Source: a virus
IMG/VR virus record: IMGVR_UViG_3300036760_000036
Span: 1-49,532 of that record
Length of the DNA: 49,532 nt
Reading direction: 5' to 3' (one strand)
The notes beneath the pieces are model-generated. The model was not told the DNA's origin. It searched no databases and saw nothing but the letters and a program-made list of their open reading frames with translations. Numbering within the stretch: the first letter of the stretch is position 1; each line of letters begins with the position of its first letter. Positions 4,199-22,446 of the stretch are shown here, piece after piece. Position numbers and translations under genes: made by a program.

Positions 4199-4507
4199 AT
4201 GCACCCACGTCAAGCCAGCGTACTCGTTCAGGCCACCGAAGTTGCCGATCGTCTTGCAGCTAAGAAACAGTCCGAGAAGAAGCCCGGAGGGCCCGTTTTG
4301 CTGTGGAAGTACACGGATCCCGACGGCAGCGTCTTTTACCTTGACGAGAAGAAGACGACGATCAAGTCCCCTTTCTCAGGCAAGTCCTTCGCGGCTCGTC
4401 CTGAGCGTCACACCCCAGCTCAGGTTGGCAAAGAGATGAAGGACGAGGCCAAGGCTGATAAGGCCAAGGCTGCGCCCAAGACTGCGTCGAATTTCTGGAA
4501 GGCCTGA
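4199..4507 (+). CDS. Small Lys/Ala-rich hypothetical protein
   Basis: A 102-residue protein. I choose ATG 4199 because CAGGAG stands six bases before it. The longer in-frame start at 4151 has no ribosome binding site and would overlap the candidate promoter. The central part has a small beta hairpin-like stretch (VLLWKYTDPDGSVFYLDEKK) followed by PFSGKSFAARPERHTP. The tail is Lys/Ala-rich and likely flexible. The central stretch resembles WW-like or zinc-free beta modules, but I do not recognise a family. It is followed after one base by the Dps-like gene. Confidence 0.6.
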   Translation: MHPRQASVLVQATEVADRLAAKKQSEKKPGGPVLLWKYTDPDGSVFYLDEKKTTIKSPFSGKSFAARPERHTPAQVGKEMKDEAKADKAKAAPKTASNFWKA

Positions 4508-4508
4508 A

Positions 4509-5417
4509 ATGGCCGAGAGTTCGACGCACGCGATTTGGGTAGACCCGCTCGCGTTTGATTCACTTGAGAATGGGCCCCCGTACTTGCCGGAACGACCGAG
4601 GGTTATGATGGCAAAGAACGCCAATTCGATTGAAGTGCTCCAGCGAGTGTGCGGGGCCTTTGCGGGCATGGCTATGGCGGAGCTGGGCGCTTTGGTGGCG
4701 ATCTTGAGGGCAGCCTCGATCGTTCACCAAAGCCACCACTGGCAGACCCGGGGTGGCAACTTCTTCGGGGATCACCTGTTGTTCGATCGCCTCTACAGTG
4801 AATCGGTAGGCTTCATCGATCAAGTGGCTGAGCGTGCCGTGGGATCCGGGAGTCGGGATCTCGTGTGCCCGAAGACTCAAGCGGGTTTGATCCCTGAGGT
4901 GGTCAACTACTGGTGCGGTAGCATTCAAGAGCCCACGTCTTTCGATATGGTCGTCGTGAGCCTTGGGGTTGAGCGTTGTGTGCTCGATTGCCTCAAAGAA
5001 GCACGTGGGAGTCTTGAGACAAAGGGCCTTCTCACGGACGGCACCGACAATCTGCTTCAAGGTGTAGCGGACAAGCATGAGGAATTCCTCTACTTGCTGC
5101 AACAGCGTCAAGGGGGTCGGATGGCCTCGTACCAGTACAAGCGTACCGCTGGCAGCACTTCTGAGGAGCGTTCACGTCGGAACAAGGTGAACGACGCTCT
5201 GACCAAGATGTCCAAGGTGTACCACAGGCATCTCCCGATCCAGGAGATCCGAGACCTTCTTGAGGCTAACGGCTTCGACACCTCAGAGCTTGAGGGCATC
5301 TACACGGGTCGGGATGGGAAGTCGCATGACAAGGTTGGGGAGCACACCTATCTGAGCTTGTCATGGCACAAGATGGAAGAGTCAGGGAACTGGGAAATCA
5401 CGGCGTACGTGAGTTGA
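4509..5417 (+). CDS. Dps-like ferritin-fold protein with extra C-terminal domain
   Basis: A 302-residue protein with GGAAGG ahead of the ATG. Residues 50-200 match the Dps/ferritin-like four-helix family. HHW at 76-78 is followed by RGGNFFGDH, then LFDRLY and IDQVAERAVG. Candidate ferroxidase ligands H77, H89, D104 and E108 have spacings of 12, 15 and 4, identical to H51, H63, D78 and E82 of E. coli Dps as I recall them. Dps proteins bind iron and often DNA and protect against peroxide. The C-terminal 90 residues (starting KVNDALTKMSKVYHRHLP) are an added domain I do not recognise. The gene sits between connector genes. Whether it acts in the infected cell or inside virions is unknown. Confidence 0.75.
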   Translation: MAESSTHAIWVDPLAFDSLENGPPYLPERPRVMMAKNANSIEVLQRVCGAFAGMAMAELGALVAILRAASIVHQSHHWQTRGGNFFGDHLLFDRLYSESVGFIDQVAERAVGSGSRDLVCPKTQAGLIPEVVNYWCGSIQEPTSFDMVVVSLGVERCVLDCLKEARGSLETKGLLTDGTDNLLQGVADKHEEFLYLLQQRQGGRMASYQYKRTAGSTSEERSRRNKVNDALTKMSKVYHRHLPIQEIRDLLEANGFDTSELEGIYTGRDGKSHDKVGEHTYLSLSWHKMEESGNWEITAYVS

Positions 5418-5478
5418 GTGCGTGCCTAAAAACCCTCCTCGTGGCACAAGGGGCAAAAATCAGATTGGACAGGATCAA

Positions 5479-6498
5479 ATGGCAAAAGTATCAGGTTACA
5501 GGCATGGTTGTGGGCTTGACGTAGGTACGATGAATCTTGTTGCCGCTAGGCAGACAGGAGACGGCCAGAGCGTTGAGACCAAGCGGATTCGAGACGCCTT
5601 CATCGACCTCGATCTTGAGGCCAAGAAGACGCTTCGCTTGTCCAAGGTGGACTACGTTGAGAAGGACGGGCAGCTCATCGTGTTGGGCGACTCAGCCCTC
5701 AACATGGCGAACCTGTTCAAGCGGGAAGTCCGTCGGCCCTTGAGCCGTGGCGTTATCTCGGCCGGTGAATTGGATGCTCAACAGATCCTGAGCCTGCTCA
5801 TCTCGAACGTCGTGGGTGAGCCCGTGACGCCCAAGGAGCACTGCTTCTACTCGGTGCCAGCGGCTCCTGTGGATGACGAGAACCAGGACATCATCTACCA
5901 CCAAGAGGTGTTCCGTAAGATCCTCGCGGAGCTGGGGTACACCCCGCATCCGATGAATGAGGCGATGGCGATCATCTACAGCCAGTGCGCCGAAGAGAAC
6001 TTTTCTGGGCTTGCGGTGAGCTTCGGTTCTGGCATGGGTAACATTGCCCTCGCGTACCAGACCGTCAAGGGTATGGACTTCTCGGTAGCGAGGGGTGGGG
6101 ACTGGATCGATACCCATGCCGCTAAGGCCACGGGTTCTACGTCTGCCCGCATGTGTACGATCAAAGAGAAGGGCGTGGATCTCGCGAACCCGAAGAACCG
6201 GGATGAGGAAGCGCTGGCGCTCTACATCCGGTCCTTGATCAAGTACGTGCTGGAGAACATCGCGATCCAGTTCAAGAAGGTTCAGTCCTCGTTGGATCTG
6301 CCGGAACCCATCCCGTTCATCGTGTCAGGCGGCACCAGTCGGGCGGGCGGCTTCATGGAAGTCTTCATCGATGAGTTCGAGGCGGTGAAGAAGCGTGGCT
6401 TCCCCATCCAGATTAGCGAGATCAGGTCCGCCAAAGACCCCATGACCTCCGTCGCAGAGGGCCTCTTGGTCCTGGCGATGGAAGAGCACGCGGGGTGA
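5479..6498 (+). CDS. Actin/Hsp70-superfamily (ParM/MreB-like) ATPase
   Basis: A 339-residue protein. ATG 5479 is chosen because GGACAGGA precedes it; a GTG at 5422 gives 19 extra, low-complexity residues. The actin-fold landmarks appear in order. The phosphate-1 loop is GLDVGTMNLV near residue 12. The phosphate-2 loop is LAVSFGSGMGNIAL near 179. The adenosine motif is FIVSGGTSRAGGF near 281. Such proteins polymerise (ParM, MreB, phage Alp proteins) or act as chaperone-like ATPases. The spacing suits a ParM-like size. It lies between the Dps-like gene and an endonuclease within the neck cluster. A role in DNA or particle positioning is an inference. Confidence 0.75.
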   Translation: MAKVSGYRHGCGLDVGTMNLVAARQTGDGQSVETKRIRDAFIDLDLEAKKTLRLSKVDYVEKDGQLIVLGDSALNMANLFKREVRRPLSRGVISAGELDAQQILSLLISNVVGEPVTPKEHCFYSVPAAPVDDENQDIIYHQEVFRKILAELGYTPHPMNEAMAIIYSQCAEENFSGLAVSFGSGMGNIALAYQTVKGMDFSVARGGDWIDTHAAKATGSTSARMCTIKEKGVDLANPKNRDEEALALYIRSLIKYVLENIAIQFKKVQSSLDLPEPIPFIVSGGTSRAGGFMEVFIDEFEAVKKRGFPIQISEIRSAKDPMTSVAEGLLVLAMEEHAG

Positions 6499-6502: not shown

Positions 6503-7138
6503 ATGCGACCATGCCGAAAATGCGGCGCAATGGATCGGCAGCCGAGTGGCCATTGTCGTCCGTGTAGCAAAGCTAGACATAGAATCCTTACAGAGGGGTT
6601 GGTTAACAAACCGTGTGTGAGGTGTGGTGCAACAGAACGGAATAAACGTGGTGGTTGTAAAGCGTGTCAACGTGCTCGTAAAAAAATCTGGCTTGAAGCC
6701 CCTGGTAACCCCCAGCCTTGCGTGAAGTGTGGCGCTATAGATCGCAACAGGTTTGGAGATTGCATCTCGTGTTCCAGAGAGCGCTCAAGGGAGTGGGCTA
6801 GAGAAAACGTGGTCCGGGCATCTTCTCAAGTCCAAGCGTGGCGGGCAGCCCACCCAGAAAAAGCTGTCGAGATGGATCTAAAGGTTAGGCTCAAGCGTTA
6901 CGCCCTAACCATTCAACAGTTTCGGAGTCTCTACACCTTACAGAAGGGGTTGTGCGCAATTTGTTCCGTGCTTCTACCGAGACGCTTTGATATTGATCAT
7001 GATCATGAGACTGGCGTGGTGCGGGGTTTACTTTGCCACCCTTGTAACATTGGTTTAGGTGGTTTCAAGGACAACCAGGACACTTTATTTAGTGCTATTC
7101 AGTATCTGAAACTCCATACCCTTCAGAAGGTTGGGTAA
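6503..7138 (+). CDS. Endonuclease VII-like HNH endonuclease with three zinc ribbons (homing type)
   Basis: A 211-residue protein; GGGGTGATC precedes the ATG. The C-terminal domain matches the recombination endonuclease VII family (T4 gp49-like). It has C151/C154 in CAICS, the DIDHDHETG active-site block at 163-171 and CHPCN at 178-182. The N-terminal third has three tandem units of the form C-x-x-CGA-x-[DE]R-x3-G-x-C-x2-C, each a probable zinc ribbon for DNA recognition. The gene is fitted between two structural genes: four bases after one stop, with its TAA sharing a base with the next ATG. Codon use is more A/T-rich than its neighbours. A free-standing homing endonuclease is the best reading; Holliday-junction resolution cannot be excluded. 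Confidence 0.8.
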   Translation: MRPCRKCGAMDRQPSGHCRPCSKARHRILTEGLVNKPCVRCGATERNKRGGCKACQRARKKIWLEAPGNPQPCVKCGAIDRNRFGDCISCSRERSREWARENVVRASSQVQAWRAAHPEKAVEMDLKVRLKRYALTIQQFRSLYTLQKGLCAICSVLLPRRFDIDHDHETGVVRGLLCHPCNIGLGGFKDNQDTLFSAIQYLKLHTLQKVG

Positions 7139-8334
7139 TGTACTATTACCTTGTCCAGGCCCTCAAGCGCCGCCTTGTCCTAGAGTTGCAAGACAGCTTC
7201 TCGAAGCATCCAATTTACGAGAAAATAGTACCCTTCATCCAGAACCGTTTCGCGTTCACAGAGCGCCCCCAGATGGGGATCGTCGTCAAGGGTTCGAGCG
7301 CGAATAAGGTTCAGCTCTCGGCCGACAACTTCTTGGGGTCGGTGGAGAGCCACGTGATGCTGGCCTATGTGGGGGCTCCCGTGTACCCGATCGAGTGGGT
7401 GCGTGAGGATCTGGCGTGTCTGAATGCCAACCACGGGGTGATGCCGACGCCCCCAGGCATCTACTACCTAGAGATCATATCGGCCCCGGAGAACGCTCAA
7501 TCCGAGGGCAGCTTTATCGTGGATCCGCTCCTGACGGTCAATGATGAAGCGGTGCTGCGTTTCATTTCGGGGATCGAAAATGAGGCTCAGCTTCAACGCC
7601 TGCCCGTGCAGGGGACGTTGCGGCTTTGGGAGAATCGTAAGTTCCTGTTGTCCGAGGGCACGCATTACCGTGTGGACTACGAGACAGGGGCGATCGAGCT
7701 GCTGATCCGGTCCGCAGCCGGATCGGTGCTGACCGCTGACTACCGCTATTCGGTACCTTCTGTGGGCCCTGTTTCGTACCAGTGGAACCGCTCAGATTTC
7801 ACAACGCTCCCTGGGGTCGTGTTGGCTTTCGGCAAGCGGGGCAAAGCGGGTGATAAGGTTGCGATTGTTGTCTACGAGGATCGGGTTGAGACGGCCCAGG
7901 CGTATGGTGGCCGCTTTGACGCGACGTTCGAGCTGGATGCCTTGGCTCGCGATCCTACGCAAATGGAGGAGTTGGCTGACCTGATCATTATGTATCTGTG
8001 GGGGCAGAAGCGCTCTGTTCTGTCTTCTGAGGGTATTGAGATTACGGACATTTCGATGGGCGGCGAGGCCGAAGAAATCTACGACGAAACGAGTGATGAC
8101 TCCTTCTACAATGCGTCGCTCTCGATTCAGATGCAGGCCGACTGGGAGATCCACATCCCGTTGCCCTTGACCGTTAGCCGGGTGACTCCGACGACAGCGC
8201 TAACGGACAAATCTGCCAACCCTCTCGACACACAACAGGCCACGACGATCATCAATGACGTTCAGAACAAGCTGTTCTTTGCGACGATGCCGGTCATTGC
8301 GGGGCGTAACAACAACTTTGAGAGGATCCTGTGA
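7138..8334 (+). CDS. Virion structural protein (neck / tail terminator region)
   Basis: A 398-residue protein whose ATG overlaps the endonuclease stop. It is beta-rich with few charged helices. A helical block, RDPTQMEELADLIIMYLW, is followed by EGIEITDISMGGEAEE near residues 275-320, a pattern I associate with tail-terminator or neck proteins of SPO1-like phages. The C-terminus contains a helix (QQATTIINDVQNKLFF). It lies directly upstream of the sheath, apart from the GIY-YIG and zinc-ribbon genes, which supports a neck role. Precise function not proven. Confidence 0.6.
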   Translation: MYYYLVQALKRRLVLELQDSFSKHPIYEKIVPFIQNRFAFTERPQMGIVVKGSSANKVQLSADNFLGSVESHVMLAYVGAPVYPIEWVREDLACLNANHGVMPTPPGIYYLEIISAPENAQSEGSFIVDPLLTVNDEAVLRFISGIENEAQLQRLPVQGTLRLWENRKFLLSEGTHYRVDYETGAIELLIRSAAGSVLTADYRYSVPSVGPVSYQWNRSDFTTLPGVVLAFGKRGKAGDKVAIVVYEDRVETAQAYGGRFDATFELDALARDPTQMEELADLIIMYLWGQKRSVLSSEGIEITDISMGGEAEEIYDETSDDSFYNASLSIQMQADWEIHIPLPLTVSRVTPTTALTDKSANPLDTQQATTIINDVQNKLFFATMPVIAGRNNNFERIL

Positions 8335-8972
8335 CGCAGCATACGCACAAAGGTAAAGCTACTTTGGTCTATGCTGCCGTATGCTTGTCTAACGGTAAAC
8401 TATACTTTGGAATTACATCCAGGTCCTTGGCTAGACGGCGGTCGGCACACTTAGCGGATAAGTCACGCGCAAGATTCCATCAAGCTCTCCGTAAGCACAC
8501 CCCGTCGAACTTCATCTGGGTGGAAATTATACGTACAGAAACGTGGGAAGAGGCTTGCAAGTGTGAGTCCTTCTTGATTGCTTTCTACCAAACTACAGAG
8601 CACACCTACGGTTACAATGGGACATTAGGAGGGGATGGCTCGGTAGGCTATCGACACACCCTTGAAGCCCGGCAAAGTATGCGTTCCAAAAGAGTTGGAA
8701 AGAGTACGTGGTCTAAAGGGGTAAAGATGACCGCAGATCAACTAAAGTCTAGGCTTGGTAATCAAAACCACTTAGGAAAAAAGCATTCTGTTGAGACGAA
8801 ACAACGGATGAGTGCGCTCGCGAAACGCTTAAAGACTCCTGCTCATACTATTCGGGTAGTTTTGCAGGAAGAGTCTGTTTTAGGGGTCAGTGCTGTCGCT
8901 CGAAAATTCGGAGTGTCTAGGAGTTCTGTTTATAAATGGAAGGCGATGTGTGATGCCACGCTATTCGTTTGA
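8331..8972 (+). CDS. GIY-YIG homing endonuclease with NUMOD3-like and HTH DNA-binding modules
   Basis: A 213-residue protein with a GTG start overlapping the previous stop (GTGA). The N-terminal GIY-YIG-type domain shows VYAAVCLSNGKLYFGITSRS followed by RRSAH and a catalytic-type Glu in CESFLIAFY. The middle has NUMOD3-like units (HTLEARQSMRSKRVGK and GKKHSVETKQRMS). The C-terminus is a helix-turn-helix (VSAVARKFGVSRSSVYKWK). This is the classic architecture of free-standing phage homing endonucleases. Its base composition is more A/T-rich than flanking structural genes. The 3' end overlaps the next gene by 20 bases. Confidence 0.85.
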   Translation: MTQHTHKGKATLVYAAVCLSNGKLYFGITSRSLARRRSAHLADKSRARFHQALRKHTPSNFIWVEIIRTETWEEACKCESFLIAFYQTTEHTYGYNGTLGGDGSVGYRHTLEARQSMRSKRVGKSTWSKGVKMTADQLKSRLGNQNHLGKKHSVETKQRMSALAKRLKTPAHTIRVVLQEESVLGVSAVARKFGVSRSSVYKWKAMCDATLFV

Positions 8973-9560: not shown

Positions 9561-12500
9561 ATGGCATTGGGTCCATTCATTTCATACGCACCCCCGGGTG
9601 TTTACACTCGTACCCTGACTGATACCAACGCCTCAAACTTGGTCGCTGGACTCAGGATCCCGGCACTGATCGGCGTCGGTCAGGAAGAACTGGAACAGGA
9701 CGACTTTGAGCTTGTCCGTGGTTCCAGCTCTACGGTTGACCAGCAGATTGTCAACGAGGACGAGTCTGAGAGTTGGGTGGTCGATGCGACCAACCCCAAC
9801 AACCTGATCCTCGGGGTTCAGGATGGCACCTTTACGACGATCCGGGTTCGTAACTTTCCGATCGTAGACGGTCAAGGCTTTGGCCGGGTCACCAATGACG
9901 TACGGTCGGTCACGGTGACTGTGAATGAATTGCCGGTTTCTTTGGGTGCAGTTCAAGGTCAGAAGGGTCTTGTGACCCTTCAGGTTCCGACACAGCCAAA
10001 TGATCGTGTCCGGGTCACCTACTTCTTCCACCGTGGTGACACGGCGTTCACGGATGACGTGTCCGAGCAGGTCACGGTCGAGAACGCCTCGCTGATTACG
10101 CCTGGCTACGCGCCCTTCGACATCACGACTGGCACCAATGACCAGTTCATCATCAACGTGAATGGTGTCGTGGCGACCATTGTGCTGCCTCAGGGCAGCT
10201 TGAACGCGGCGACGCTGGTTTCGGTCATCAATGCAGCGTTGGTCCCGAATCTCTCGACCTCGGTTTCCACGGATAACCAGGGCCAGGATCACGTTCAATT
10301 CACGACCCCGGTCGGTATCACGATTGGGGATGGTACGGCCAACGGGCCCCTTGGGTTCACGTCCGGGACGGCGACCAATCGTACCCGTGCGTTCCGCGTG
10401 TTTCAACGTCCTATCGTGGACGGGACGGGCGGCGGTACCACGACCACGGATACCTCGAAGGTGGTGGTCAAGGTTGACGGTACTCAGGTGCTGGCTTCAG
10501 CGGTTAGCGGCAGCCTGGGCATCGTGACTTTGCCCTTCGCTCCGGCCCCCGGTTCGACCGTTACCATCAACTACTGGGCGAACACCTGGCAGGACACGTT
10601 CGATTACCTGCCCAACAGCCTGGTGACGACGGTGCTGCGTTGCGGTATCTCGCCTGGTCGTAACGACTATATCCAGGGTACGGACTTCGTAGTTGCGAAT
10701 CCGACCACGGATGTTTCGGTCATCAACTGGGGCTCCAGCTTCCAGGTGGCGGCTGCCACGACAACGCCTGGTGCCACTCCGTTTGACGGGGCATCGGGTT
10801 CCGGTGGTCAGATCGTCGGCACACTGATTGACGATCAGATGTACCTGGGTGCTTGCACTCGGGTGACCAACACAAGCACGATCCCGGCCACGGTATCGAG
10901 CACGGACTTCTTGCTGCCTGAGGTTCCGACCACGGGTAACGGCCGGAGCACCACGTTGGGCTTGCCGACGTTTAACTCGGTGGCCAACTCGCGTCAGGAT
11001 CTTGTAACGAACCGCCCGGACCTGGTGGTGGTTTACACGGGTCGTACATTGCGGGACGCTCTCAATCGTCCGGCTGTTCCTGTCACGGTTGTCGATGGTG
11101 TGAACCGTCGGATCGTGCTCAAGACCCCGCAGCCGCCGGACTACAACGCCTACGCGACCTTCTACTACAGCCGTCTGGCTGATGACACGTTCATCTTCAC
11201 CAACACGGTGGCGGGTCCGGTAGGTTCGGGTCAGTACACGGTCTTCTCGACCACCCGTGATGCCAATCTGTATGAAGCGAAGTTCGGATCCAAGACGGGT
11301 AGCCAGATCATCCAGTGGCCTCGTGGCGTGGAGCAGATCCCGGATGCGTTCCACACGGGGGACGGTGCCCCCGCCGCTGAGGTGGTGACCGTTACCTTCG
11401 GTACGGCGGCAGCCCGTAACGCGGCCTACACGAACAAGGGCGGTTCGCCGTACTCGTTCTACAGCCCGTTCTCGGCGACCTGGACCACTCAGGTCAACGG
11501 CGTCAACCAGGTCTCGAACTTGGCGGCGGCGGCCCGGGCTTGCATGGTCGGCGGTCATGTGACCCCGGCAACCGGCGTGCCTCAAGTCACGATTCCGGCT
11601 TCCCCCAACAACGTGCTGAATCTGACGATCGATGGTTTCCCGATCGCCCCGATCAGCATCACTGCGGGTCTTCGTACCCCGGTCCAGATCATCGCGGATA
11701 TCAATGCGGCGATTGACGCAAACGCCAACTTCCTCGGTACCGCTCCGAACAACCTGGCGAGCTTCAAGCAGGTCGGTCCGGCCACGGGTGACATCTTCTT
11801 CATCATCAAGGGCCTCGAAGTTCCGGGAGCGCTTCCCGGCGGGTTCGATGATGTGGCGAATGTCACGATCAACCAGGGCACCGTTGAGACAACGCTTGGT
11901 TTCACGACCTTTGCGAGTGTCAACGGCACCACGAGCGCCATCAACAAGCCTGCCACGATGCTCGGTTCCCTCGCGGGTCCGTTCAACATCACGGCTGGTC
12001 TGAACGACGCTTTCAGTGTCCGCGTCAACGGCGTGGACTACTCGATTACGCTGACGGCGGGTCCGGCACAAACCGCTGCGGCGGTGGTGGCGGACATCAA
12101 CGCGGTGGTAGCTTCTGTGGCTAGCGTGGGCACGGGGGCGAACCTGAACAAGGTTCGTTTGACCTCAACCACGAACGACTCGGGTTCGGCTATCCTGATC
12201 AACATCGGGTCTGCAAACGCGGTTCTTGGGTTCACCCAGAACCAGTTCGCTAGTCAGACGTTGGTTGAGGCACAAGAAGTGGTAGATGTTCTCATGGATA
12301 CGGCGGGTTACGCGACGGGCGCTGTGGCGTACGTGGCTCCCATCAGCGGCAAGAACTACATCACGTTCGAGTCCTTGACCGTGGGTGCCGCCACCTCCTC
12401 AATCGGGTTTGCAAACTCCGCAAACTCGGCGTTCAACCCGACCACGGGTACGAACATCACGCCTGGCACTGACGGCGATGTTGGCGAGGATGCCCAGAAC

Positions 12501-13838
12501 AACTACGTGGTGACCTCGACCTCTCCGGTAGGGTCATCGGGCACCGGTACTCCGGGTCAGACGTACACGGATGCACGCACGGGGCTCCGCTTCACGGTTC
12601 TCCCGGCCAGCACGGGCAGCTACACACCCACGAATTACTTCACGTTGGAGGTCGGTCCGACCTTCCATGTGTCGCCTTCGGTGCCTCGCTACTCGATTGG
12701 TGGCCTGGAACTTCTCGTTTCCAACACGGTGGGCGTGGGTGTCAACGACACTGCCTCGCTCACGACGTACAACCCGAGCGGTGTGGAGCCGACGGTTGGG
12801 GACTTCTACTTCATCAGCTACCGCTACTTGAAGCAGGACTACTCGCCGAAAATCTTCCAGCAGCTCAAGACGATCGAAGCGAACTTCGGCAGGACCTCTG
12901 CTGAGAATCGCGTCACGTTGGCTGCCTACTTGGCCATCCTGAACGGTGCTGTGTTGGTGATCATCAAGCAGGTCTTGAAGATCCCCAACACGAACCAGGC
13001 GTCGGACCAGGCGTTCAACTCGGCCATCGACGAGTTGGCGACCCCGCTGCCCGGTAACATCAAGCCGGACATCATCATCCCGCTCTCCACCAGCACGGCG
13101 GTCTTCACGCACCTGACGGCACACTGCGAAGTCCAGTCGAACATCCGTAACCAGTCGGAGCGTATTGGGTTCATTGGGTTTGCGTCCGGCACGTCGCCGA
13201 CTTCCGCTCAAACGGTGGCCAAGGGCCTGAACTCCAGCCGTATCTTGGCGCTGTACCCGGATTCGTCGGTCATTACCCTGACCGATGCGCTTGGGCAGTC
13301 GTTCGAGAGTCTCGTGGACGGTAGCTTCTTCGGAGCTGCCGTGGCGGGTTCTGCTGTGTCACCTGCGGTTGACGTGGCGACCCCGTACACCCGTCGTCGC
13401 ATCCAGGGCTTTACCCGTATCCCCCGAATCATGGATCCGGTTGAGGCCAACCAAACGGCAGTTGCTGGTATCACGATTCTGGAGGACTTGGATCCGATCA
13501 TCCGAATCCGCCAGGGTCTAACCACGAACATGACCTCGGTGCTGACCCGGTTGCCCACCGTGGTGCAGATCGCGGACTTCGTGCAGCAGCAGTCGCGGGC
13601 AATCTTGGACTCCTTCATCGGAACCAAGTTCCTGGCGAGCCGCACCAACGAGGTCGTGGTTTCCATGACCAGCTTGTTCAAGAGCTTGGTCCAAGCGGAG
13701 ATTGTGGGAGCCTTCACGGGCATGACCGCAGCAATCGACGACGAGGACCCTACCGTCCTACGCTTCGAGATGTACTACTCTCCAATATTTCCTCTTTTGT
13801 ACATCATGATGACCTTCAACCTTCGAGCACGGGTCTAG
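9561..13838 (+). CDS. Tail sheath protein, enlarged
   Basis: A 1425-residue protein with an AAGGAG site. The N-terminus (MALGPFISYAPPGVYTRTL) and the C-terminal block (QGFTRIPRIMDPVEANQTAV near 1283 to the end, with QQQSRAILDSFIGTKFLASR) match contractile tail sheath proteins. These assemble around the tube and contract to drive injection. It is about twice the size of T4 gp18. Between the conserved ends lie beta modules. One, carrying PIVDGxG, is duplicated at about 94-180 and 275-360. Three flagellin_IN-like units (N-x-x-x-[IV]-x-[VI]-[ND]G with a following ADINA/SVINA helix) lie near 186, 686 and 808. The inserts are probably displayed on the tail surface. Confidence 0.88.
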   Translation: MALGPFISYAPPGVYTRTLTDTNASNLVAGLRIPALIGVGQEELEQDDFELVRGSSSTVDQQIVNEDESESWVVDATNPNNLILGVQDGTFTTIRVRNFPIVDGQGFGRVTNDVRSVTVTVNELPVSLGAVQGQKGLVTLQVPTQPNDRVRVTYFFHRGDTAFTDDVSEQVTVENASLITPGYAPFDITTGTNDQFIINVNGVVATIVLPQGSLNAATLVSVINAALVPNLSTSVSTDNQGQDHVQFTTPVGITIGDGTANGPLGFTSGTATNRTRAFRVFQRPIVDGTGGGTTTTDTSKVVVKVDGTQVLASAVSGSLGIVTLPFAPAPGSTVTINYWANTWQDTFDYLPNSLVTTVLRCGISPGRNDYIQGTDFVVANPTTDVSVINWGSSFQVAAATTTPGATPFDGASGSGGQIVGTLIDDQMYLGACTRVTNTSTIPATVSSTDFLLPEVPTTGNGRSTTLGLPTFNSVANSRQDLVTNRPDLVVVYTGRTLRDALNRPAVPVTVVDGVNRRIVLKTPQPPDYNAYATFYYSRLADDTFIFTNTVAGPVGSGQYTVFSTTRDANLYEAKFGSKTGSQIIQWPRGVEQIPDAFHTGDGAPAAEVVTVTFGTAAARNAAYTNKGGSPYSFYSPFSATWTTQVNGVNQVSNLAAAARACMVGGHVTPATGVPQVTIPASPNNVLNLTIDGFPIAPISITAGLRTPVQIIADINAAIDANANFLGTAPNNLASFKQVGPATGDIFFIIKGLEVPGALPGGFDDVANVTINQGTVETTLGFTTFASVNGTTSAINKPATMLGSLAGPFNITAGLNDAFSVRVNGVDYSITLTAGPAQTAAAVVADINAVVASVASVGTGANLNKVRLTSTTNDSGSAILINIGSANAVLGFTQNQFASQTLVEAQEVVDVLMDTAGYATGAVAYVAPISGKNYITFESLTVGAATSSIGFANSANSAFNPTTGTNITPGTDGDVGEDAQNNYVVTSTSPVGSSGTGTPGQTYTDARTGLRFTVLPASTGSYTPTNYFTLEVGPTFHVSPSVPRYSIGGLELLVSNTVGVGVNDTASLTTYNPSGVEPTVGDFYFISYRYLKQDYSPKIFQQLKTIEANFGRTSAENRVTLAAYLAILNGAVLVIIKQVLKIPNTNQASDQAFNSAIDELATPLPGNIKPDIIIPLSTSTAVFTHLTAHCEVQSNIRNQSERIGFIGFASGTSPTSAQTVAKGLNSSRILALYPDSSVITLTDALGQSFESLVDGSFFGAAVAGSAVSPAVDVATPYTRRRIQGFTRIPRIMDPVEANQTAVAGITILEDLDPIIRIRQGLTTNMTSVLTRLPTVVQIADFVQQQSRAILDSFIGTKFLASRTNEVVVSMTSLFKSLVQAEIVGAFTGMTAAIDDEDPTVLRFEMYYSPIFPLLYIMMTFNLRARV

Positions 13839-13869: not shown

Positions 13870-13915
13870 AAGAGGGTCTGAGTCAGACGAACTGGCTCTG
13901 ACCCTCTTGCTTTTT
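13870..13915 (+). terminator. Intrinsic terminator after the tail sheath gene
   Basis: A 17-base stem (13870-13886 with 13892-13908, two mismatches) with a five-base loop is followed by GCTTTTTGG. It lies 32 bases after the sheath stop. This is the clearest rho-independent terminator in the window and would isolate sheath transcription from the accessory island. Confidence 0.8.
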
Positions 13916-13941: not shown

Positions 13942-16152
13942 ATGCGTAGAGGTTCCTGGACCCCCGAAGGGTTAGTCACCGCTTTTCTTGGCGGTGAGAC
14001 CCTGGATTCCCTTTGCAAGCGAGTCGGCGCTAGCCCGAACACCGTCCGAAGGGTCTTGAAAGAGCAGCTTGGTGAGGAGCAGTTTCGCTCTACCCGGGAC
14101 AGGAACGATCCCAAGCAGTCCACCGCGTCTGAGTCAGAACTCCTTGAGCCGTTCCACACGAACGAAGCTTTTAAGGATGTTGCCTCCCGTATTGGGGTGG
14201 GTCCCAACACATTGCGATCCAAGTGGGTCCAGGCTTTCGGCAAGGAAGCCTTTGACGCTCGTTCCAAGCGATTGCATTCCGACGCCGGTACGAGAGCTGG
14301 GCTCAGTTGGAAGGGCAAGACACGGGTAACCACTGAGCAGTACCGTGAGCGGGATGTGGCTCGCGGTTCAGATCACTGGTGCGAAGTCTGTGGTGGTGGC
14401 TTTGTTGGGTACCAGGCCCTTACCCATCACATGGTAAGGGCTGGAGACGAGGCGCATACCAAGGCTTTGGAGATGGTGCGTGCTAAGGTTGAGGACGAGA
14501 AGTGGGCCGGTCTTCAAGAGGGTGTTGACTATGTTGTGTGCCCTGAGTGTGGGCTAAGGGGTGTGACTCTTACAGGACACCTTCGTACGCATGGTCTGGA
14601 CACACAGTCCTTTAGGGTGAAGTGGCCCGATTGTCTTGTCTGGGCGTCCAAGGCCGCCGCCCAGCACCAAGCATCACTTGTGGCGTCATCTACGGATCAG
14701 TCCTATGGGTGGACCGTAGATGATCTCAAACCTTTTGCAGATGAGGCTGGGGCCATCATTGTAGCTAAAGCTGCCGCATCTCTAGGATCGGCTCAGATCA
14801 CTGTTCTACACTATTGCCGTAAGCTGGGTCTTCGTACTCGCAACAAACTTGCTTGGCAAAGGTTAGTTCTAGACAAGGCTGCTGAGTTTCTGGGCCCGTA
14901 CCAGTGGGAATGGGCTGACCCTAAGCTATACAACTCCGCTACAGGGCGGCCCTTCAATTACGATGGGTACTTCCCAGCGCACCAGTTAGTCATTGAAGCG
15001 CATGGGGATCAGCACTTCAAGTTTTCTGAATCCTGGCACGGTACCCTAGACGAGTTTCATCGTTTGCGGGCCATAGATGTGCTGAAGAAAGAGATGGCTC
15101 AGGCACACGGCATCAAAGTCATTACCGTTAGACATTCGGATCCAGTGCACGACGACTCTTTTTGGACGGCACTGTTGGGAGGGAGTAGCGCTCTCTGGGA
15201 GCACCTGTCTGAAAGCGCTAAGTGGACTAAGGTCAATGACACTCTCCTGGGGGTAAGGATGAAACCCTTCCCTGTTGTCCCTCCTAATGAAACTGAGCTA
15301 AAGAAGGCGTTGACCAGGATACACAAGCTAGTCCCCTATTTGGATGCTGGGCGTCAGATTCACCCGTACAGCACTATTGGGACGGCTGCTTGCGCTTCAT
15401 TCTTTCCTAACCGTTACCACGCTAAGCGGCAAGGGGACCGCAGTGCCTGGGACATGTGGCACAACGATGCCTCGTTGCGGAAAGCAATCCGTCTGCAACT
15501 GGACTCAGGGCATCCTACGACCCCGGAGAGGGTGTTGAAGGCCGTTGTGATGTTTAGTCGGACGCCTTCGGTGTTTCGGCCAGCGGTAGCTAAGTACGTG
15601 TATGAGAATTACTGCCCTAAGGGTGGCGTCGTTTGGGACCCTTGTGCGGGGTACGGTGGGCGTCTTTTGGGTGCGATGGCGGCTGGGGTTGGTCGTTACA
15701 TTGGTACGGATCTGGAGCCCGAGACAGCTCAAGGGAATCAAGCTCTGGTAGATGCTCTTGAGTGCAAGACGAGCTGCCGTATAGAGTGTGCGGATGCAAC
15801 AACTTTTGATCCAGGCGAGGCTTTGGATCTTGTGTTTACCTCACCCCCGTACTTTGATCTGGAGGTGTACGGGAAGAAGTTTGAGGCGTCGTTACGGGGG
15901 TCCTCTGTCGAGCAGTGGGTGCAGTCCTTTTTGGGGTCTGTTGTGGCACGGGCGGCACAGCGTTTGAAATCTGGCGGCTTTTTGGTTCTCAACCTACCTC
16001 AGAAGCCTGTGGGCGGTCTGCGGTTGGATTTGGCAATGGGCCCGTTAGTTCAGTTGGCGGGGTTGACTCCCTTGGAACCTGTCTACATGCCTGTTCGCAG
16101 TTTCAAGAAGGGGATGAAGCGGGAACCCCTTTTGGTTTGGCAGAAGCCCTGA
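13942..16152 (+). CDS. Multidomain zinc-finger / Vsr-like nuclease / DNA methyltransferase fusion
   Basis: A 736-residue protein. Two helix-turn-helix-like segments lie at residues 7-40 and 68-92. A C2H2-type finger begins at C147/C150, with histidines near 163. A Ros/MucR-like finger begins at C200/C203 and continues through GHLRTHGLDTQSFRVKW. A nuclease core of the Vsr/EDxHD kind covers 338-400: D341 in YDGYF, E352 in VIEAHGDQH, then KKE and ITVRH. The C-terminal third is a SAM-dependent DNA methyltransferase with motif I D566-P-C-A-G-Y-G-G-R and catalytic SPPYF at 634-638. This order fits gamma-type amino-methyltransferases (N6-adenine or N4-cytosine). The chain resembles a one-protein restriction-modification enzyme (type IIG-like in logic) or a homing nuclease that protects its own site. 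Confidence 0.8.
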   Translation: MRRGSWTPEGLVTAFLGGETLDSLCKRVGASPNTVRRVLKEQLGEEQFRSTRDRNDPKQSTASESELLEPFHTNEAFKDVASRIGVGPNTLRSKWVQAFGKEAFDARSKRLHSDAGTRAGLSWKGKTRVTTEQYRERDVARGSDHWCEVCGGGFVGYQALTHHMVRAGDEAHTKALEMVRAKVEDEKWAGLQEGVDYVVCPECGLRGVTLTGHLRTHGLDTQSFRVKWPDCLVWASKAAAQHQASLVASSTDQSYGWTVDDLKPFADEAGAIIVAKAAASLGSAQITVLHYCRKLGLRTRNKLAWQRLVLDKAAEFLGPYQWEWADPKLYNSATGRPFNYDGYFPAHQLVIEAHGDQHFKFSESWHGTLDEFHRLRAIDVLKKEMAQAHGIKVITVRHSDPVHDDSFWTALLGGSSALWEHLSESAKWTKVNDTLLGVRMKPFPVVPPNETELKKALTRIHKLVPYLDAGRQIHPYSTIGTAACASFFPNRYHAKRQGDRSAWDMWHNDASLRKAIRLQLDSGHPTTPERVLKAVVMFSRTPSVFRPAVAKYVYENYCPKGGVVWDPCAGYGGRLLGAMAAGVGRYIGTDLEPETAQGNQALVDALECKTSCRIECADATTFDPGEALDLVFTSPPYFDLEVYGKKFEASLRGSSVEQWVQSFLGSVVARAAQRLKSGGFLVLNLPQKPVGGLRLDLAMGPLVQLAGLTPLEPVYMPVRSFKKGMKREPLLVWQKP

Positions 16153-16156
16153 GCCC

Positions 16157-17008
16157 TCAGACGCGGACCAGTATTTCCAGGATGTCTCGGAGCAGGAGTA
16201 GGGTCCCTTCGGGTGGGCTTTTGAGCCAGAGGCCGTCTGGGGTGGTGGTCCAGTCTGCAAGCTCACCCATCGCGAGTTCCATCTGGTTGAGTACCCGACA
16301 AGCCAACGGTAGGTCGAACCCCAGGAACTGGCTTTTGCGAGCGACCAAGCAGTGCTTTCGGTCTCCTGGGCTGTGGTCTACGAGGATCCCTCGTAAGAAC
16401 CCGGCTCGAAACAGCTCGACCCAGCCGTCCCACAGAGGTGCTTGGGTTTCAGCCGCCACAAACCCGTTGGTTCCCCGGTCCAGGATCCGCACCTCGGTGT
16501 GTGGCGTCTGTCCCAGAAGGGGCAGCTTGCCTTCATGGATGTACTCTCGGATCCACCCCACCGCTGTGGTGACCCGGTGGCTCAGCTCACGTTGCGAGAT
16601 CCCGGTGTCGGGGAAGTAGACCCTAAGGGCTGACAAGAAGCGGGCCAGGTCTTCTTCGATGTGGGCCAAAGCGGGTAGCCCCAGGCGGTGCACGAAGTCC
16701 ACCGTGTAGACGAATCCAGCGGTGGCTGGGTGTGTTGCGAGATCTCGATGTAGGAACAACGCGATGGCCATGAGGGTGTCAATGTCTTGAACACGGGGTG
16801 TAGCGAATACCAGGGGCATGGCCCGGCCGAGCAGCAAGTCCTCGTAGAAACTGGGCAAAGCCCCACGGTCGAAGGGGGTGAATTCCGAGCCGTGGTGCTC
16901 GTAAGCCAGCGAGGTTTCGAGTTGGGCTTTGGAGGCCCCGGTCTCGAAGGACACTGCATCGGGCACTATGGCCGGAAGGTCCCGTTCTATCCGCACGTTA
17001 ATTTCCAT
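16157..17008 (-). CDS. Hypothetical protein, only minus-strand gene
   Basis: A 283-residue protein read on the minus strand, convergent with the fusion gene (stop codons four bases apart) and divergent from the HTH gene (41-base gap). There is no strong ribosome binding site before the ATG, so an internal start is possible. Visible features are EHHGSEFTPFDRG near residue 37, an Asp-rich stretch RVQDIDTLMAIALFLHRDLA, and VYTVDFVHRLGLPALAHIEED. The His/Asp groups hint at a metal-dependent hydrolase such as a DHH-type enzyme, but motif order does not fit well and I do not claim it. No competing + strand frame of similar quality spans this region. Confidence 0.6.
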   Translation of the reverse strand: MEINVRIERDLPAIVPDAVSFETGASKAQLETSLAYEHHGSEFTPFDRGALPSFYEDLLLGRAMPLVFATPRVQDIDTLMAIALFLHRDLATHPATAGFVYTVDFVHRLGLPALAHIEEDLARFLSALRVYFPDTGISQRELSHRVTTAVGWIREYIHEGKLPLLGQTPHTEVRILDRGTNGFVAAETQAPLWDGWVELFRAGFLRGILVDHSPGDRKHCLVARKSQFLGFDLPLACRVLNQMELAMGELADWTTTPDGLWLKSPPEGTLLLLRDILEILVRV

Positions 17009-17664: not shown

Positions 17665-20600
17665 ATGCCTAATCTTTCAGAGCGCGTTTCCCGTCGGGTT
17701 CTTGCAGACGAGCTTGATCCTGATGACAACATCGGTGAGCTTGAGATCGCAGAGTATCTCGTGTTCATGCTCGCTCTCGATACGTACACTCGGTACGTTG
17801 AGGAAACGGCAGGCCCCGACGTGGAAGACGACCTGATTCGTAAGGGCATCATGCTCATTCGGCTCGCGGATCGTCAGCACCTGGCCACCATCCAAGCCTT
17901 CTTGGGTGACAACCTTCCGAGTGCCAACCACAAGCGGATGTTGGACAAGGCTTTCCGGTTTGTGGCTACCAACACGCAAGGCTTGGGTCGGCGGAGCCTT
18001 CAGTTGCGTACGCTTCTTTCGAGGGGCGGGGCTTCTACGATGCGAGCTGTGTTCAAGTCGAACAAGGCTTTGCTGGAGGTCAAGGCGGCGTTGGCGGCCT
18101 CTATGGTGGATGACGCGGATGCAGCGCTCGATAAGTTTGCCGTCATTCCGATGAGGAACCAGCGTTTGCGTAAGTGGATCGACGTAGCGGCTGAGACGGC
18201 TGGTTCTGGGTCGTTTCAGAACGCGGTATCGGTTGGCGGAGACGAGGCGGCGGCAGACCTCGATTCCTTGTACGCGGCCAAGGCTCAACAACAGGCTGCG
18301 ACCCCGGCTTCTGAGGACAGCCAACAGGCTTCGGACCAGCACGCGCAGATACTCTTGGACATGCAGACGCGGGCCACTGGAGCGGCTCAGAGGGCCATGG
18401 AAGTCTCGGGGGAGCCCGATGTGCCTCCGAATAAGTCCGAGGTTGTGGGCATTGCTACGGCGGCTGTGGCGGCTGCCATGACGGACCCCAGCAAGTCCAC
18501 CAACGTTCCAGCTTCTCTCCGGAGTCTGGATGAGGAACAGCAAGCGGCAGCGCTCACCGACGGCAAGGTCTTGGTGGCAGCCGGTGCGGGTGCTGGGAAG
18601 TGCATTCGAGGGGATACTCTTGTTCAAACCGTTAGAGGGATGATCCCAATTCGAGAGTTTGCAGAGCACCTGGCCGCGAACGAAGAGTCAGAGTTGGTTG
18701 AGACTGTGTTGGGCTTAGGTGGTCCAGAAAAGACCAGCACTATCCTGAATAACGGGCGTCGAAGCACGATTAGGTTGACAACCCATCTAGGGTATCAGAT
18801 TGAAGGTACTCCTAACCATCCTCTTTGGGTATTGCGGGATGGGGAGCTTCAATGGGTAGCACTGGGGCAGGTCGAAAGTTCAGACTTTTTATGCATTGAT
18901 CGTCGAGCAGGGTTGTTTGCGGAGGAACCGTTTCGTGTTTCTGAGCGTGCGTTTGTCAAAGTCACTAATTCAGAGCCTTCCAATATACCCGTTGAGTTGA
19001 CACCACAGGTTGCCTCTCTTCTTGGTTACATTGTAAGTGAGGGCCAAGTTGTCTACGGGCATCATTCCGTTGTTAACTTGACGACCACGGACGAGGCACA
19101 GTTGGGTCTTTACAAGACTTCTGTAGAGGGTATCATCTCAAAGTGGACTGCTTTCTATGACGAATCTGAAAAGCATTGGTGTCTGAAGTTCTACCGCAAG
19201 GCGAATTTAGAAGCCCTTGCTGACTTTGGGCTCACTTATTCACTTGCCTACGATAAAGAGGTTCCGGTTGGGGTTCTTAGGTCCCCTAAAAAAGTTGTAG
19301 TGTCTTTTCTTCGTGCCCTTTTTGACGGGGATGGCGGGTTCTACCGAAGCACTGTTTACTATGACAGTTCAAGTGAAAAGCTTGCAAGGCAGATCCATCA
19401 ACTACTTCTGTCCTTCGGTATCGTGTCGGCGTTACGCTTTAAGCCTAATGACAAGAGAGGGTGCTGGAACATTTCGTTGACTGGGGACAATGCCAGGCTG
19501 TTCTTGCGAGATATAGGTTTTAACCTAGTCGCTAAACAACAGGCCGCCGAATCGGCGTTGAACGATCTAACCTCGAACCCTAATCTTGACGTCTTTCCTG
19601 GCATCTCTCATTTGTTTAGGGAGGTGCATGAAGAGGCCAAGGGCGCTGGCTTACACCCTACGCTATACCCTGAGTACGGGGCTTTTAAATGTTGCATCAG
19701 TGGCACAAGGAATGCATCAAAGCCTACGTTACTGAAATTCCTACACGCCTACCCGGAGTCTAATACCCCAGCTCGTGCCGCTCTTCAGAAGTTTTCAGAA
19801 ACACCCTGGTTCTATGACGCGGTGGGTATCTTAGAGGACTCTGAGGCGGAGGTCTACGACTTCGTAGTGCCTGGCACTCACTCATTTTCCGCTGGTGGTT
19901 TTGTTAACCACAATTCCACCACGCTCGTGGCTCGCATTGACTACTTGGTGAAGGAACGCAAGCAGAATCCCAACCGTATCCTTGCGTGCTCGTTCAACCG
20001 CAAAGCGGCTGATGAACTCAAGGGTAAGATTGCGAAGAAGCTGGGGACCGATGGCTCCGATGTCGGGGTCCAGGTCGGCACTATGCACTCGCTGTTCTAC
20101 AAGTTCATCACGGGGGACCGTCAGGTGCCTGGTTTCGGCACACCTGAGGAACAGGCGATGCTCAAGCCGCCCCGTCTGATCGCGCCACCCAAGAAGGGCG
20201 TGCGGTCCGTGAGTCCGACCACGATTTCAATTGCGATCCGTAACATCTGGACCAATTGCGACGTGGAGGGCTTGGCCAGACGGTTCGGCTTCCCCGTTGA
20301 ATGGCTGGTGGAGCCCCCGAAGGCCAAGAAGGCCAACCTGCTCTTGAACAAGTGGCGTGGCAACGACGTGAGTCTCGAAGAGGCTAAGAAAAAGGTGACC
20401 TCGAAGGCGGAAGCCCAGGCGGTCGTTTGGTACGAGATGTATATGGGCGTCAAGGGTGACATCCCTGGGTGGCGTCCGCCGTGTGTGTCACCGGCTTACG
20501 ACAACTTCATGAAGAAGAATCGTCCGGGTGGTGAGCGTCTAGGTGATCTTGACGACATGCTCAAGGTGTTCCAGCAGATCTTGAAGCGGGACCCGAAAGC

Positions 20601-22446
20601 CAAGGCAATGGTCCAGGGCATGTTCGACCATTTCTTGGTCGATGAGTGCCAGGACTTGAACCTTGTGCAGCATCAGATCTTCGAGTTGATGACCGAGCAC
20701 ATCGGGGATGGCTCTGACGGCAAATCTCTGTGGATGATCGGGGACGATAAGCAAGCCATTTACCAGTTTCGTGGCGCTCGTCCTGAGCTGTTCACGAGCC
20801 TCGATGGTAAAGAGGGTTGGAAGACCCGGATGATCAAGACGAACTACCGTTGCGAGCCGGAGATCGTTGATGCTGCCAATCGTTTGGTTGCCCACAACGA
20901 TGGCAACATCCCTATGGAAGCCCGAGCTAACCCTAAGAAGGCTAGGGGCAAGGCTTCTATTATCGTGGACACGCCAAGCGACAACACGTCGGCGGCGATC
21001 CAGACTATCGGTCGTGTGGTCAAGGACATCGCGACCGAAGATGCGAAGGCTGAGGACTACGCGGTTCTGGCACGCACCAACGCAGAGTTGAACGACTTCG
21101 AGACTGCCTGCATCATCAACGAGATCCCCTACGTGCGGCGTGGTGGTAAGGGCTTCTTGGAGGCCCCTGAAACCAAGGCAGTCTTGGGGTATATCGACCT
21201 GATCACGGGCAATGACTATGAGAAGATGAAGGGCTCTCTCGTGTCGGCGCTCATGAAGCCCGATCGTGGCACCTACCTGGGTCCTGACGATGTGGCGAAG
21301 GCTGTGGATGAGGCTCTCGATGACCTCTCCAGGCGTGAGCGTGTCGATATCAGGTCCGTGAGCCCTATGGCCTTGTTGGAGAGCCGCAACATCCGGCTTC
21401 TTGCCGACAAGCTCAAGCAGCCGTACAGGCTCAAGATCATGGCCTCCGCTCGTGGCGATGTCCGCAAGGGCGAGTGGATGTACGGTAAGCGTGTGGACGA
21501 GCTGGCTGACAACCTCAAGGGGATGGCCAAGAATCTGCGGGATTTGTCCGCGTTCGTGGCGGCTGGGGACAACAGCACGGACAAGCTGCTGGACTACATC
21601 CTTGACAGCATGACCTCAGTGGTTTCAGGTTGGTCCCGTGAGCGGGGTGCCTACACGGAGACCAGCACGTTGCGTGAGCAGATCACGCATGACACCGCTA
21701 TCTTCGCCGATGACGACGGGGATGAGGACGAGACTGAGACAGAGGAAGTGGTGCCGGAGGTTGGTGAAGAAGGTTTGCTAGGGGTCAAAAAGAAGGAGGA
21801 CGTACCGGGCAAGGGTCTGGGTGCCGTTCAGTTCCTGTACCAAATGGCGGTTCCTAACGATAACGACCAGACCAACAATACAGACCCTTCTACGGCTCAA
21901 GGGTTTGTGAGCAAGATTGCCAGGTACTCGAAGCTGTCGGAGACTCTGCGGATCGACCCCGAGAAGTGGGAGAAGGATCAGAACAAGATCGCGGATCCTG
22001 GGCAGCGTCGGGCGAAACCCCCGGCCATCACGCTTTCTACGGTGCACTCGGTCAAGGGTCTTGAGTGGCCTAACGTTTCGGTGTTGATGCCTGCGGGTAA
22101 GTTCCCGCCTGTGCGTAGGCCTCGTCCCAATGAGCCTCCACCTGATCCGGTGGAGGAAGCGGAGAAGTTGAAGGCTGAGCGCAACTTGGCGTATGTGGCC
22201 TTGACCCGAGCTGCCGTGAATCTCGAAGTGTTGTGCCCCATGGTTTCGGATAACGGCATGGAGGCGGGCATCAGCCGCTTCGTCCGTGAGGCTGGTTTGC
22301 ACGAGGGGGAGAACGTCCCCAAGGGCGAGGTGTTCGAGTCTGGGGAGAAGACGGCTGCTGTTGAGGCTGTGGACCCACACGTGTTGGAAACCATCGAGCG
22401 GTACGCCGATGAGATGCCCGCAACGTATGATCGGAGGGGGTCATGA
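17665..22446 (+). CDS. UvrD/PcrA-type SF1 helicase interrupted by an intein
   Basis: A 1593-residue precursor, 1155 residues after splicing, with GGAG before the ATG. Superfamily 1A motifs appear in order. The Q-like motif is LDEEQQAAAL. Walker A is AAGAGAGK|STTL, split by the intein. Motif II is VDECQD near 992. Then come GDDKQAIYQFRGA near 1026, NYRCEP near 1060, TVHSVKGLEW near 1459 and AYVALTRA near 1512. These helicases move 3' to 5' on ssDNA and act in repair and recombination. About 290 residues precede the helicase core and match nothing I know; they are helix-rich with a Gln/Ala-rich linker. The C-terminus overlaps the next start (ATGA). The gene lies in the accessory island, not in an obvious replication cluster. 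Confidence 0.88.
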   Translation: MPNLSERVSRRVLADELDPDDNIGELEIAEYLVFMLALDTYTRYVEETAGPDVEDDLIRKGIMLIRLADRQHLATIQAFLGDNLPSANHKRMLDKAFRFVATNTQGLGRRSLQLRTLLSRGGASTMRAVFKSNKALLEVKAALAASMVDDADAALDKFAVIPMRNQRLRKWIDVAAETAGSGSFQNAVSVGGDEAAADLDSLYAAKAQQQAATPASEDSQQASDQHAQILLDMQTRATGAAQRAMEVSGEPDVPPNKSEVVGIATAAVAAAMTDPSKSTNVPASLRSLDEEQQAAALTDGKVLVAAGAGAGKCIRGDTLVQTVRGMIPIREFAEHLAANEESELVETVLGLGGPEKTSTILNNGRRSTIRLTTHLGYQIEGTPNHPLWVLRDGELQWVALGQVESSDFLCIDRRAGLFAEEPFRVSERAFVKVTNSEPSNIPVELTPQVASLLGYIVSEGQVVYGHHSVVNLTTTDEAQLGLYKTSVEGIISKWTAFYDESEKHWCLKFYRKANLEALADFGLTYSLAYDKEVPVGVLRSPKKVVVSFLRALFDGDGGFYRSTVYYDSSSEKLARQIHQLLLSFGIVSALRFKPNDKRGCWNISLTGDNARLFLRDIGFNLVAKQQAAESALNDLTSNPNLDVFPGISHLFREVHEEAKGAGLHPTLYPEYGAFKCCISGTRNASKPTLLKFLHAYPESNTPARAALQKFSETPWFYDAVGILEDSEAEVYDFVVPGTHSFSAGGFVNHNSTTLVARIDYLVKERKQNPNRILACSFNRKAADELKGKIAKKLGTDGSDVGVQVGTMHSLFYKFITGDRQVPGFGTPEEQAMLKPPRLIAPPKKGVRSVSPTTISIAIRNIWTNCDVEGLARRFGFPVEWLVEPPKAKKANLLLNKWRGNDVSLEEAKKKVTSKAEAQAVVWYEMYMGVKGDIPGWRPPCVSPAYDNFMKKNRPGGERLGDLDDMLKVFQQILKRDPKAKAMVQGMFDHFLVDECQDLNLVQHQIFELMTEHIGDGSDGKSLWMIGDDKQAIYQFRGARPELFTSLDGKEGWKTRMIKTNYRCEPEIVDAANRLVAHNDGNIPMEARANPKKARGKASIIVDTPSDNTSAAIQTIGRVVKDIATEDAKAEDYAVLARTNAELNDFETACIINEIPYVRRGGKGFLEAPETKAVLGYIDLITGNDYEKMKGSLVSALMKPDRGTYLGPDDVAKAVDEALDDLSRRERVDIRSVSPMALLESRNIRLLADKLKQPYRLKIMASARGDVRKGEWMYGKRVDELADNLKGMAKNLRDLSAFVAAGDNSTDKLLDYILDSMTSVVSGWSRERGAYTETSTLREQITHDTAIFADDDGDEDETETEEVVPEVGEEGLLGVKKKEDVPGKGLGAVQFLYQMAVPNDNDQTNNTDPSTAQGFVSKIARYSKLSETLRIDPEKWEKDQNKIADPGQRRAKPPAITLSTVHSVKGLEWPNVSVLMPAGKFPPVRRPRPNEPPPDPVEEAEKLKAERNLAYVALTRAAVNLEVLCPMVSDNGMEAGISRFVREAGLHEGENVPKGEVFESGEKTAAVEAVDPHVLETIERYADEMPATYDRRGS
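18601..19914 (+). mobile_element. LAGLIDADG intein in the helicase Walker A motif
   Basis: This 438-residue intein is in frame between Lys312 and Ser751 of the precursor. It starts with Cys1 in CIRGDTLVQT (block A), has TPNHP (block B), and ends with VYDFVVPGTHSFSAGGFVNHN followed by Ser+1 (blocks F/G). All splicing residues are present. Two LAGLIDADG dodecapeptides are visible, LLGYIVSEG near precursor residue 452 and FLRALFDGDG near 548, so the homing endonuclease may be active. Its codons are more A/T-rich than the exteins, a sign of recent acquisition. Boundaries come from the Walker A consensus GxGKST. Confidence 0.92.

Follow-up and report, generated by a model that had tools for sequence, protein, structure and literature searches.

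The fusion gene and its domains

The window, by which we mean the whole 49,532-base stretch analysed, is probably a fragment, and a near-identity search found no near-identical counterpart of it among phage records. At positions 13942–16152 (plus strand) lies a complete gene of 736 amino acids that starts with ATG, contains no internal stops and encodes tandem HTH units, two zinc fingers, an EDxHD/Vsr-like nuclease and a SAM-dependent amino-methyltransferase. The initial annotation had described such a single chain from the letters alone. The reading frame and motifs agree with that description, as do conservation, structure prediction and Foldseek comparison, and the motif positions it gave (D341, E352, D566-PCAGYG and S634-PPYF) are correct in the translation and conserved. 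Related loci on other contigs (L-numbers) were found by scans with window proteins or profiles; a scan of viral contigs with the single protein returned two close relatives only, and profiles were used thereafter. The frame stays open and conserved across these relatives (99.8% DNA identity in L002, 68% amino acid identity in both L003 and L164, 52% in L151, and more distant examples), which indicates that the fusion is a real gene. In the nuclease as well as the methyltransferase part, dN is far below dS. A chance reading frame or assembly chimera was rejected because the fusion recurs on independent contigs, and foreign codon usage was dismissed as a sign of recent arrival because the codon usage of the gene is unremarkable. 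An intein or in-frame intron within a methyltransferase gene was also rejected, since the methyltransferase unit is intact, with the nuclease lying before it, and since this protein, in contrast to the neighboring helicase, matched no splicing domain.

In the window protein, Pfam gives HTH, zinc-finger and N6/N4 methyltransferase signals, every one below its curated cut-off. PHROG matches comprise homing-endonuclease and HNH-labelled nuclease families at residues 334–402 and methyltransferase families at 537–709. A full-length AlphaFold2 model built with 13 homologues has a mean pLDDT of 82.9 and a pTM of 0.48, so that single domains are well modelled and their mutual arrangement is not.

The N-terminal DNA-binding region (residues 8–118; 13963–14295, plus strand) contains model helices at 8–55 and 64–118, in agreement with the two HTH-like segments originally noticed, and Pfam HTH_23 and HTH_Tnp_1 score near or below cut-off here. 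It is followed by zinc finger 1 (residues 145–172; 14374–14457, plus strand), with ligands C147, C150, H163 and H172, and by the Ros/MucR-like zinc finger 2 (residues 196–228; 14527–14625, plus strand), with ligands C200, C203, H213 and H217. Both ligand quartets are invariant in 13 of 13 aligned homologues. The zinc-finger modules proposed earlier therefore stand, but the Ros/MucR label attached to them reflects similarity at the level of a zinc finger only. Both zf-C2H2_4 and ROS_MUCR fall under their curated cut-offs in the window protein, the latter (PF05443) scoring 20.6 bits against a gathering score of 25.4 over a zinc-finger-sized stretch; ROS_MUCR is above cut-off in the relatives L009, L006 and L165. 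A Ros/MucR regulator was rejected on this score. Tethered modular DNA-binding units are a trait of EDxHD homing endonucleases and are present here as HTHs and zinc fingers, while the relative L006 carries NUMOD3.

The nuclease domain occupies residues 301–415 (14842–15186, plus strand). Alignment adds E323, H358 and D379 to the D341 and E352 already recognized, and this EDxHD set is conserved, nuclease-only relatives included. E323 is substituted in one of 11 aligned rows (L183), whereas D341, E352, H358 and D379 are kept. Modelled alone with 11 homologues, residues 301–415 give a pLDDT of 93.6 and a pTM of 0.85. When this model was compared with the PDB by Foldseek, Vsr came first (1vsr, probability 1.00, E 9e-3), with the Vsr–DNA structure 1cw0 at 0.99 and the EDxHD homing endonuclease I-Bth0305I (3r3p) fourth at 0.87, all with modest E-values. 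A PDB sequence-profile search with the nuclease gave chance matches only, although structure comparison did find Vsr relatives; Pfam Vsr (PF03852) is not matched by the window protein, and among the relatives only L006 just reaches its cut-off. Over residues 338–400, where the initial annotation had placed a Vsr/EDxHD-type core, prediction returns a nuclease fold matching 1vsr, 1cw0 and 3r3p, and the catalytic residues are retained in homologues. This predicted Vsr-like fold with its E, D, H and D residues is the hallmark of the EDxHD enzymes, a known homing family (PMC3943268).

The methyltransferase unit spans residues ~420–736 (15199–16149, plus strand) and carries DPCAGYGG (SAM motif I, 566–573) and SPPYF (634–638), both conserved across homologues. 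Its motifs had been correctly read, but its start had been put near residue 540; alignment with stand-alone relatives of ~330 amino acids moves this to near residue 420. Structure comparison of the full-length model recovered class I methyltransferases, among them the type IIG enzyme BpuSI at rank 19, and a profile search of the PDB recovered the DNA N4-cytosine methyltransferases 8s9m/8s9n, as well as 2zie. The Pfam N6_N4_Mtase score is 24.3 in the window protein against a cut-off of 26.7, which is passed in L014, L015, L016 and L088. These motifs within a predicted class I fold are those of an SPPY-type DNA amino-methyltransferase (N4-cytosine or N6-adenine), though the substrate of such an enzyme could be a different base, or even RNA. 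There is no target-recognition domain after motif IV, as the chain stops in the model at the last strand of the methyltransferase fold.

Two relatives show unusual arrangements. In L190 (439–4729) the fusion homologue is split into an HTH part at 439–762 and a remainder from 3125, with ~2.3 kb between them that is possibly an insertion or intron. In L006, from a 484 kb phage, the gene at 440–2152 adjoins a zinc finger–Vsr–methyltransferase fusion and, by reading, itself encodes a zinc-finger protein with a nuclease-like core and no methyltransferase.

The insertion site and its alleles

The fusion gene is flanked by a conserved virion-type gene of 1425 amino acids upstream (9561–13838, plus strand) and a conserved convergent gene of 283 amino acids downstream (16157–17008, minus strand). 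We take the upstream gene to be tail-sheath-like; PHROG and PDB searches give it no name and did not confirm this label. A terminator-like hairpin with a T-run, identified by eye, lies between it and the fusion gene (13870–13915, plus strand). In L145 the segment 13839–16158 is missing, with homology ending at 13837 and resuming at 16159, and its flanks align to the window at 83–91% DNA identity. Directly after the upstream gene, the L145 junction holds 349 bp with a small ORF, and the same small ORF follows the fusion gene in L164. The upstream protein of this empty locus is closer to that of the window (95% amino acid identity) than are those of the occupied loci L164 (93%) and L003 (82–84%).

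A scan with the upstream 1425-amino-acid protein recovered 29 loci among the matches listed, and four kinds of allele occur at this fixed position. The full fusion is found in L003, L164, L151 and L148, the last cut by the contig end. L165, L168 and L172 carry HTH–zinc finger–EDxHD proteins of 540–636 amino acids without a methyltransferase, L146 retains a remnant consisting of the methyltransferase tail only, and the junction is empty not only in L145 but also in L149, L150, L154, L156/L161, L157, L159, L166 and L170. Close relatives thus differ in whether this fixed site holds the gene, as expected of an EDxHD homing endonuclease. The distant fusions in L175, L177, L009, L183, L189, L190 and L191 also come after a homologue of the 1425-amino-acid gene. 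Some of these lie on contigs of 497–619 kb, and because they share the upstream gene the window probably derives from a huge phage.

One portion of the gene has a distinct history. L003 and L164 are 93–100% identical over residues ~190–520, a stretch of ~1 kb corresponding approximately to 14509–15501 (plus strand) and comprising zinc finger 2, a variable DNA-binding region, the nuclease and the N-terminal part of the methyltransferase. In the upstream gene, the HTH and zinc finger 1 part and the methyltransferase core, in contrast, their DNA identity is 60–93%, and dS is 0.04–0.14 within the cassette versus 0.7–1.2 outside it. The backbone of L164 is nearer to the window than to L003. A near-identical cassette in otherwise diverged copies indicates that the block moved recently between them, and we infer that specificity for both the nuclease and the methyltransferase resides within it.

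Alternatively, the gene at this locus could be a long-standing resident that was domesticated for regulation, genome marking or marker exclusion and has kept one position since a huge-phage ancestor, with many losses and little or no homing now. In the methyltransferase tree the 11 EDxHD fusions do form one clade (SH-aLRT 98), adjoining the LAGLIDADG fusions described below, and all 11 have the 1425-amino-acid gene or its homologue immediately upstream, even at about 40–47% identity. One clade at one position over such deep divergence suggests that the pattern is in part due to ancient vertical descent accompanied by losses. As a full account it is very improbable, however, given that the site is empty in the relative with the closest upstream gene, that a ~1 kb cassette is almost identical in two otherwise diverged copies, and that fusion and nuclease-only forms alternate at the site. 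Homing by the fusion gene is well supported by these sequence comparisons. The initial annotation had offered two functional guesses. The gene behaves like an insertion at a specific site, where alleles that are empty, reduced to a remnant or limited to the nuclease also occur, and this favors the homing nuclease of that annotation over its one-gene restriction enzyme, which is much less supported.

Related fusions and a second site

The wider family was sampled with methyltransferase profiles, in two scans of viral contigs and a third scan of genomes. Scanned loci were picked by peptide patterns, and the counts given here apply to the matches listed and are not frequencies. At least 204 distinct methyltransferase ORFs were obtained, of which 149 are short, stand-alone methyltransferases (e.g. 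in Vibrio phage 2.058.O), 26 carry LAGLIDADG, 11 carry EDxHD by profile and the rest are other long forms; alignment adds L006 as a further EDxHD–methyltransferase fusion. Pfam LAGLIDADG_2 was matched in nine of ten fusions scanned, the tenth (L009) being of the EDxHD type. In L198, according to PHROG matches, a GIY-YIG-like or homing part is fused to the methyltransferase. By sequence, the same methyltransferase family is joined to at least two unrelated nuclease families, LAGLIDADG and EDxHD, and joining has been repeated, with the nuclease-type labels on the methyltransferase tree needing at least seven changes.

The LAGLIDADG fusions have a site of their own. Among the matches listed, upstream sequence is available for 25 of them, and in every case the fusion comes after a major head protein gene (phrog_2522, E 2e-47); the same is true of four of 116 stand-alone methyltransferases. 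A scan with the head gene gave 72 informative loci among the matches listed: 36 have no tagged gene, 24 have LAGLIDADG only, nine have the fusion and three have the methyltransferase with another N-terminal part, while eight more loci were too short to tell. The nuclease half of the fusion in L088 shares 64% identity with nuclease-only genes in L255 and L258, which lack the methyltransferase. In three cases the two sites of a single phage differ, one being occupied by a fusion and the other by a gene for the nuclease alone (L189 with L276, L191 with L322 and L195 with L172), a pattern that speaks for a local role.

Several other arrangements follow the head gene. L259 (1705–4086), L265 (5524–7875) and L270 (2118–4154) combine CGNR zinc fingers, two PD-(D/E)XK-looking domains and the same methyltransferase; this fourth nuclease type is a motif reading for which searches of Pfam, PHROG and the PDB gave no confirmation. 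L062 (4041–5936) has a methyltransferase of the same family with a different nuclease-like N-terminal part and a Ros/MucR-like C-terminal stretch. L100 carries two LAGLIDADG–methyltransferase fusions back to back (1315–3711 and 3723–5768) on a contig binned as Altiarchaeales.

The prevalence of stand-alone methyltransferases of this family in phages raises the question of whether the methyltransferase is cargo, with the nuclease homing and the methyltransferase serving the phage otherwise, for example by masking host restriction sites, and so paying for a selfish gene with which it shares no target. In moraphages, homing nucleases have been proposed to pair with helpful genes, there antitoxins (PMC12619734), and nuclease-only relatives at the same sites do without the methyltransferase. 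We nevertheless consider this arrangement unlikely, because the N-terminal part of the methyltransferase travels with the nuclease in the exchanged cassette, motif IV is not followed by a separate domain for target recognition, and one methyltransferase family has been joined in a single chain to at least two unrelated nuclease families.

Proposed function and relation to known enzymes

Our preferred reading, to which we assign a probability of about 60% on the basis of sequence comparisons and structural models, is that the fusion is a free-standing, intron-less EDxHD (Vsr-like) homing endonuclease carrying its own self-protective DNA methyltransferase. The HTHs and zinc fingers would recognize a long target located at the 3' end of the neighboring 1425-amino-acid gene or close to it, and the nuclease would cleave the genomes of co-infecting phages that lack the fusion gene. 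Recombinational repair would then copy the gene into the cut genome. The methyltransferase, steered by the DNA-recognition parts of the same chain, would mark the target in the carrier, and this marked, still uninterrupted site would be spared from cutting. Cleavage, homing, methylation and self-protection are thus predicted activities. Shielding of the element's own uncut target is suggested because the neighboring virion gene is uninterrupted, so that the target may survive in the carrier, and because the nuclease and the recognition parts are exchanged together in a single block. Of the explanations considered for the methyltransferase, self-protection appears to account best for these observations. 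Nuclease-only relatives at the same sites imply that the methyltransferase is not required, and protection may usually come from target divergence.

The presence of a nuclease, recognition modules and a methyltransferase on one chain also recalls type IIG enzymes such as BpuSI (3s1s), which unite cutting, methylation and recognition in one polypeptide and whose methyltransferase fold is matched here, although BpuSI was one of many class I methyltransferases recovered. A restriction-modification enzyme of this kind would act against competing phages or host DNA, cutting unmethylated copies of a short, frequent site that is methylated in its own genome, and the cassette exchange resembles specificity swapping in restriction systems. 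The window protein differs from type IIG enzymes in having a Vsr-like nuclease in mid-chain and no recognition domain after the methyltransferase, and in its homing-type, site-specific presence and absence. A strict link between insertion site and nuclease type is typical of homing, as are alleles that are empty or hold the nuclease alone, and so is the partnership with LAGLIDADG. Were the recognition site frequent, a nuclease encoded at this position with no methyltransferase attached would be lethal. Furthermore, the window protein matched no restriction-type families and PADLOC matched mainly methyltransferase parts. A restriction role is, accordingly, rather improbable.

More tentatively, at close to even odds, the self-protecting homing endonuclease may represent a recurrent class in which one methyltransferase family was taken up by at least two unrelated nuclease families, LAGLIDADG and EDxHD, and probably by GIY-YIG and a PD-(D/E)XK-like type as well. 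Each member would methylate essentially a single long site beside an essential virion gene and cut rivals while leaving its own target uninterrupted. In the literature covered, consisting of open-access papers and a small share of preprints, we found no earlier description of a homing nuclease–methyltransferase class. The nearest case is that of the actinophage Taj_79-type methylases, in which a LAGLIDADG domain is inserted within the methylase; nine related sequences were reported, with no strong evidence of transfer (PMC9957025). These likewise place a homing nuclease domain and a phage methylase in a single chain. In the present family, by contrast, the nuclease occupies the N-terminal side, there are several recurring nuclease types and every fusion lies at a homing-type site, and there were no actinophages among the matches to the window protein.

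Other known enzymes share only parts of the architecture. Like I-Bth0305I and the EDxHD family, the window protein combines a Vsr-like catalytic domain (E, D, H, D; matching 3r3p) with modular DNA-binding units and is phage-borne; unlike I-Bth0305I, it has the nuclease in mid-chain with a methyltransferase after it and is free-standing between genes. A review of the EDxHD enzymes mentions no methyltransferase (PMC3943268). The nuclease domain finds its best structural match in Vsr, the very-short-patch repair endonuclease (1vsr, 1cw0). Vsr is small, acts in mismatch repair and has a C5-cytosine methylase as its partner, whereas the window protein is large, modular and phage-encoded, with the SPPY motif of an amino-methyltransferase. 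The position of the gene between conserved phage genes and beside its presumed target is like that of the free-standing homing genes of T4. To our knowledge, none of the T4 genes carries a methyltransferase. One of them, SegF, is cited in PMC12908238 for intronless homing.

Homing genes normally avoid self-cutting by interrupting or altering their own target. If the self-protection reading is correct, a target in an essential virion gene that is left intact and marked would be a new answer to the problem of self-tolerance in free-standing homing genes, and the reading predicts one methylated site beside the insertion. Such fusions would form a bridge, and possibly a route, from selfish genes to restriction-modification enzymes, and would provide enzymes, with specificity cassettes that can be exchanged, for cutting and methylating long sites that are almost unique.

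Competition by means of homing nucleases is already known in jumbo phages (PMC12908238). Other mobile-type nucleases in the window are a GIY-YIG-like homing endonuclease (8331–8972), a tandem HNH protein (39429–40685) and an endonuclease VII-like protein (6503–7138). A UvrD-type helicase gene (17665–22446) contains an intein-like insert at roughly residues 332–742 (Intein_splicing, LAGLIDADG_3) that is shared with L002 and absent from L145, L164, L154, L157 and L161.
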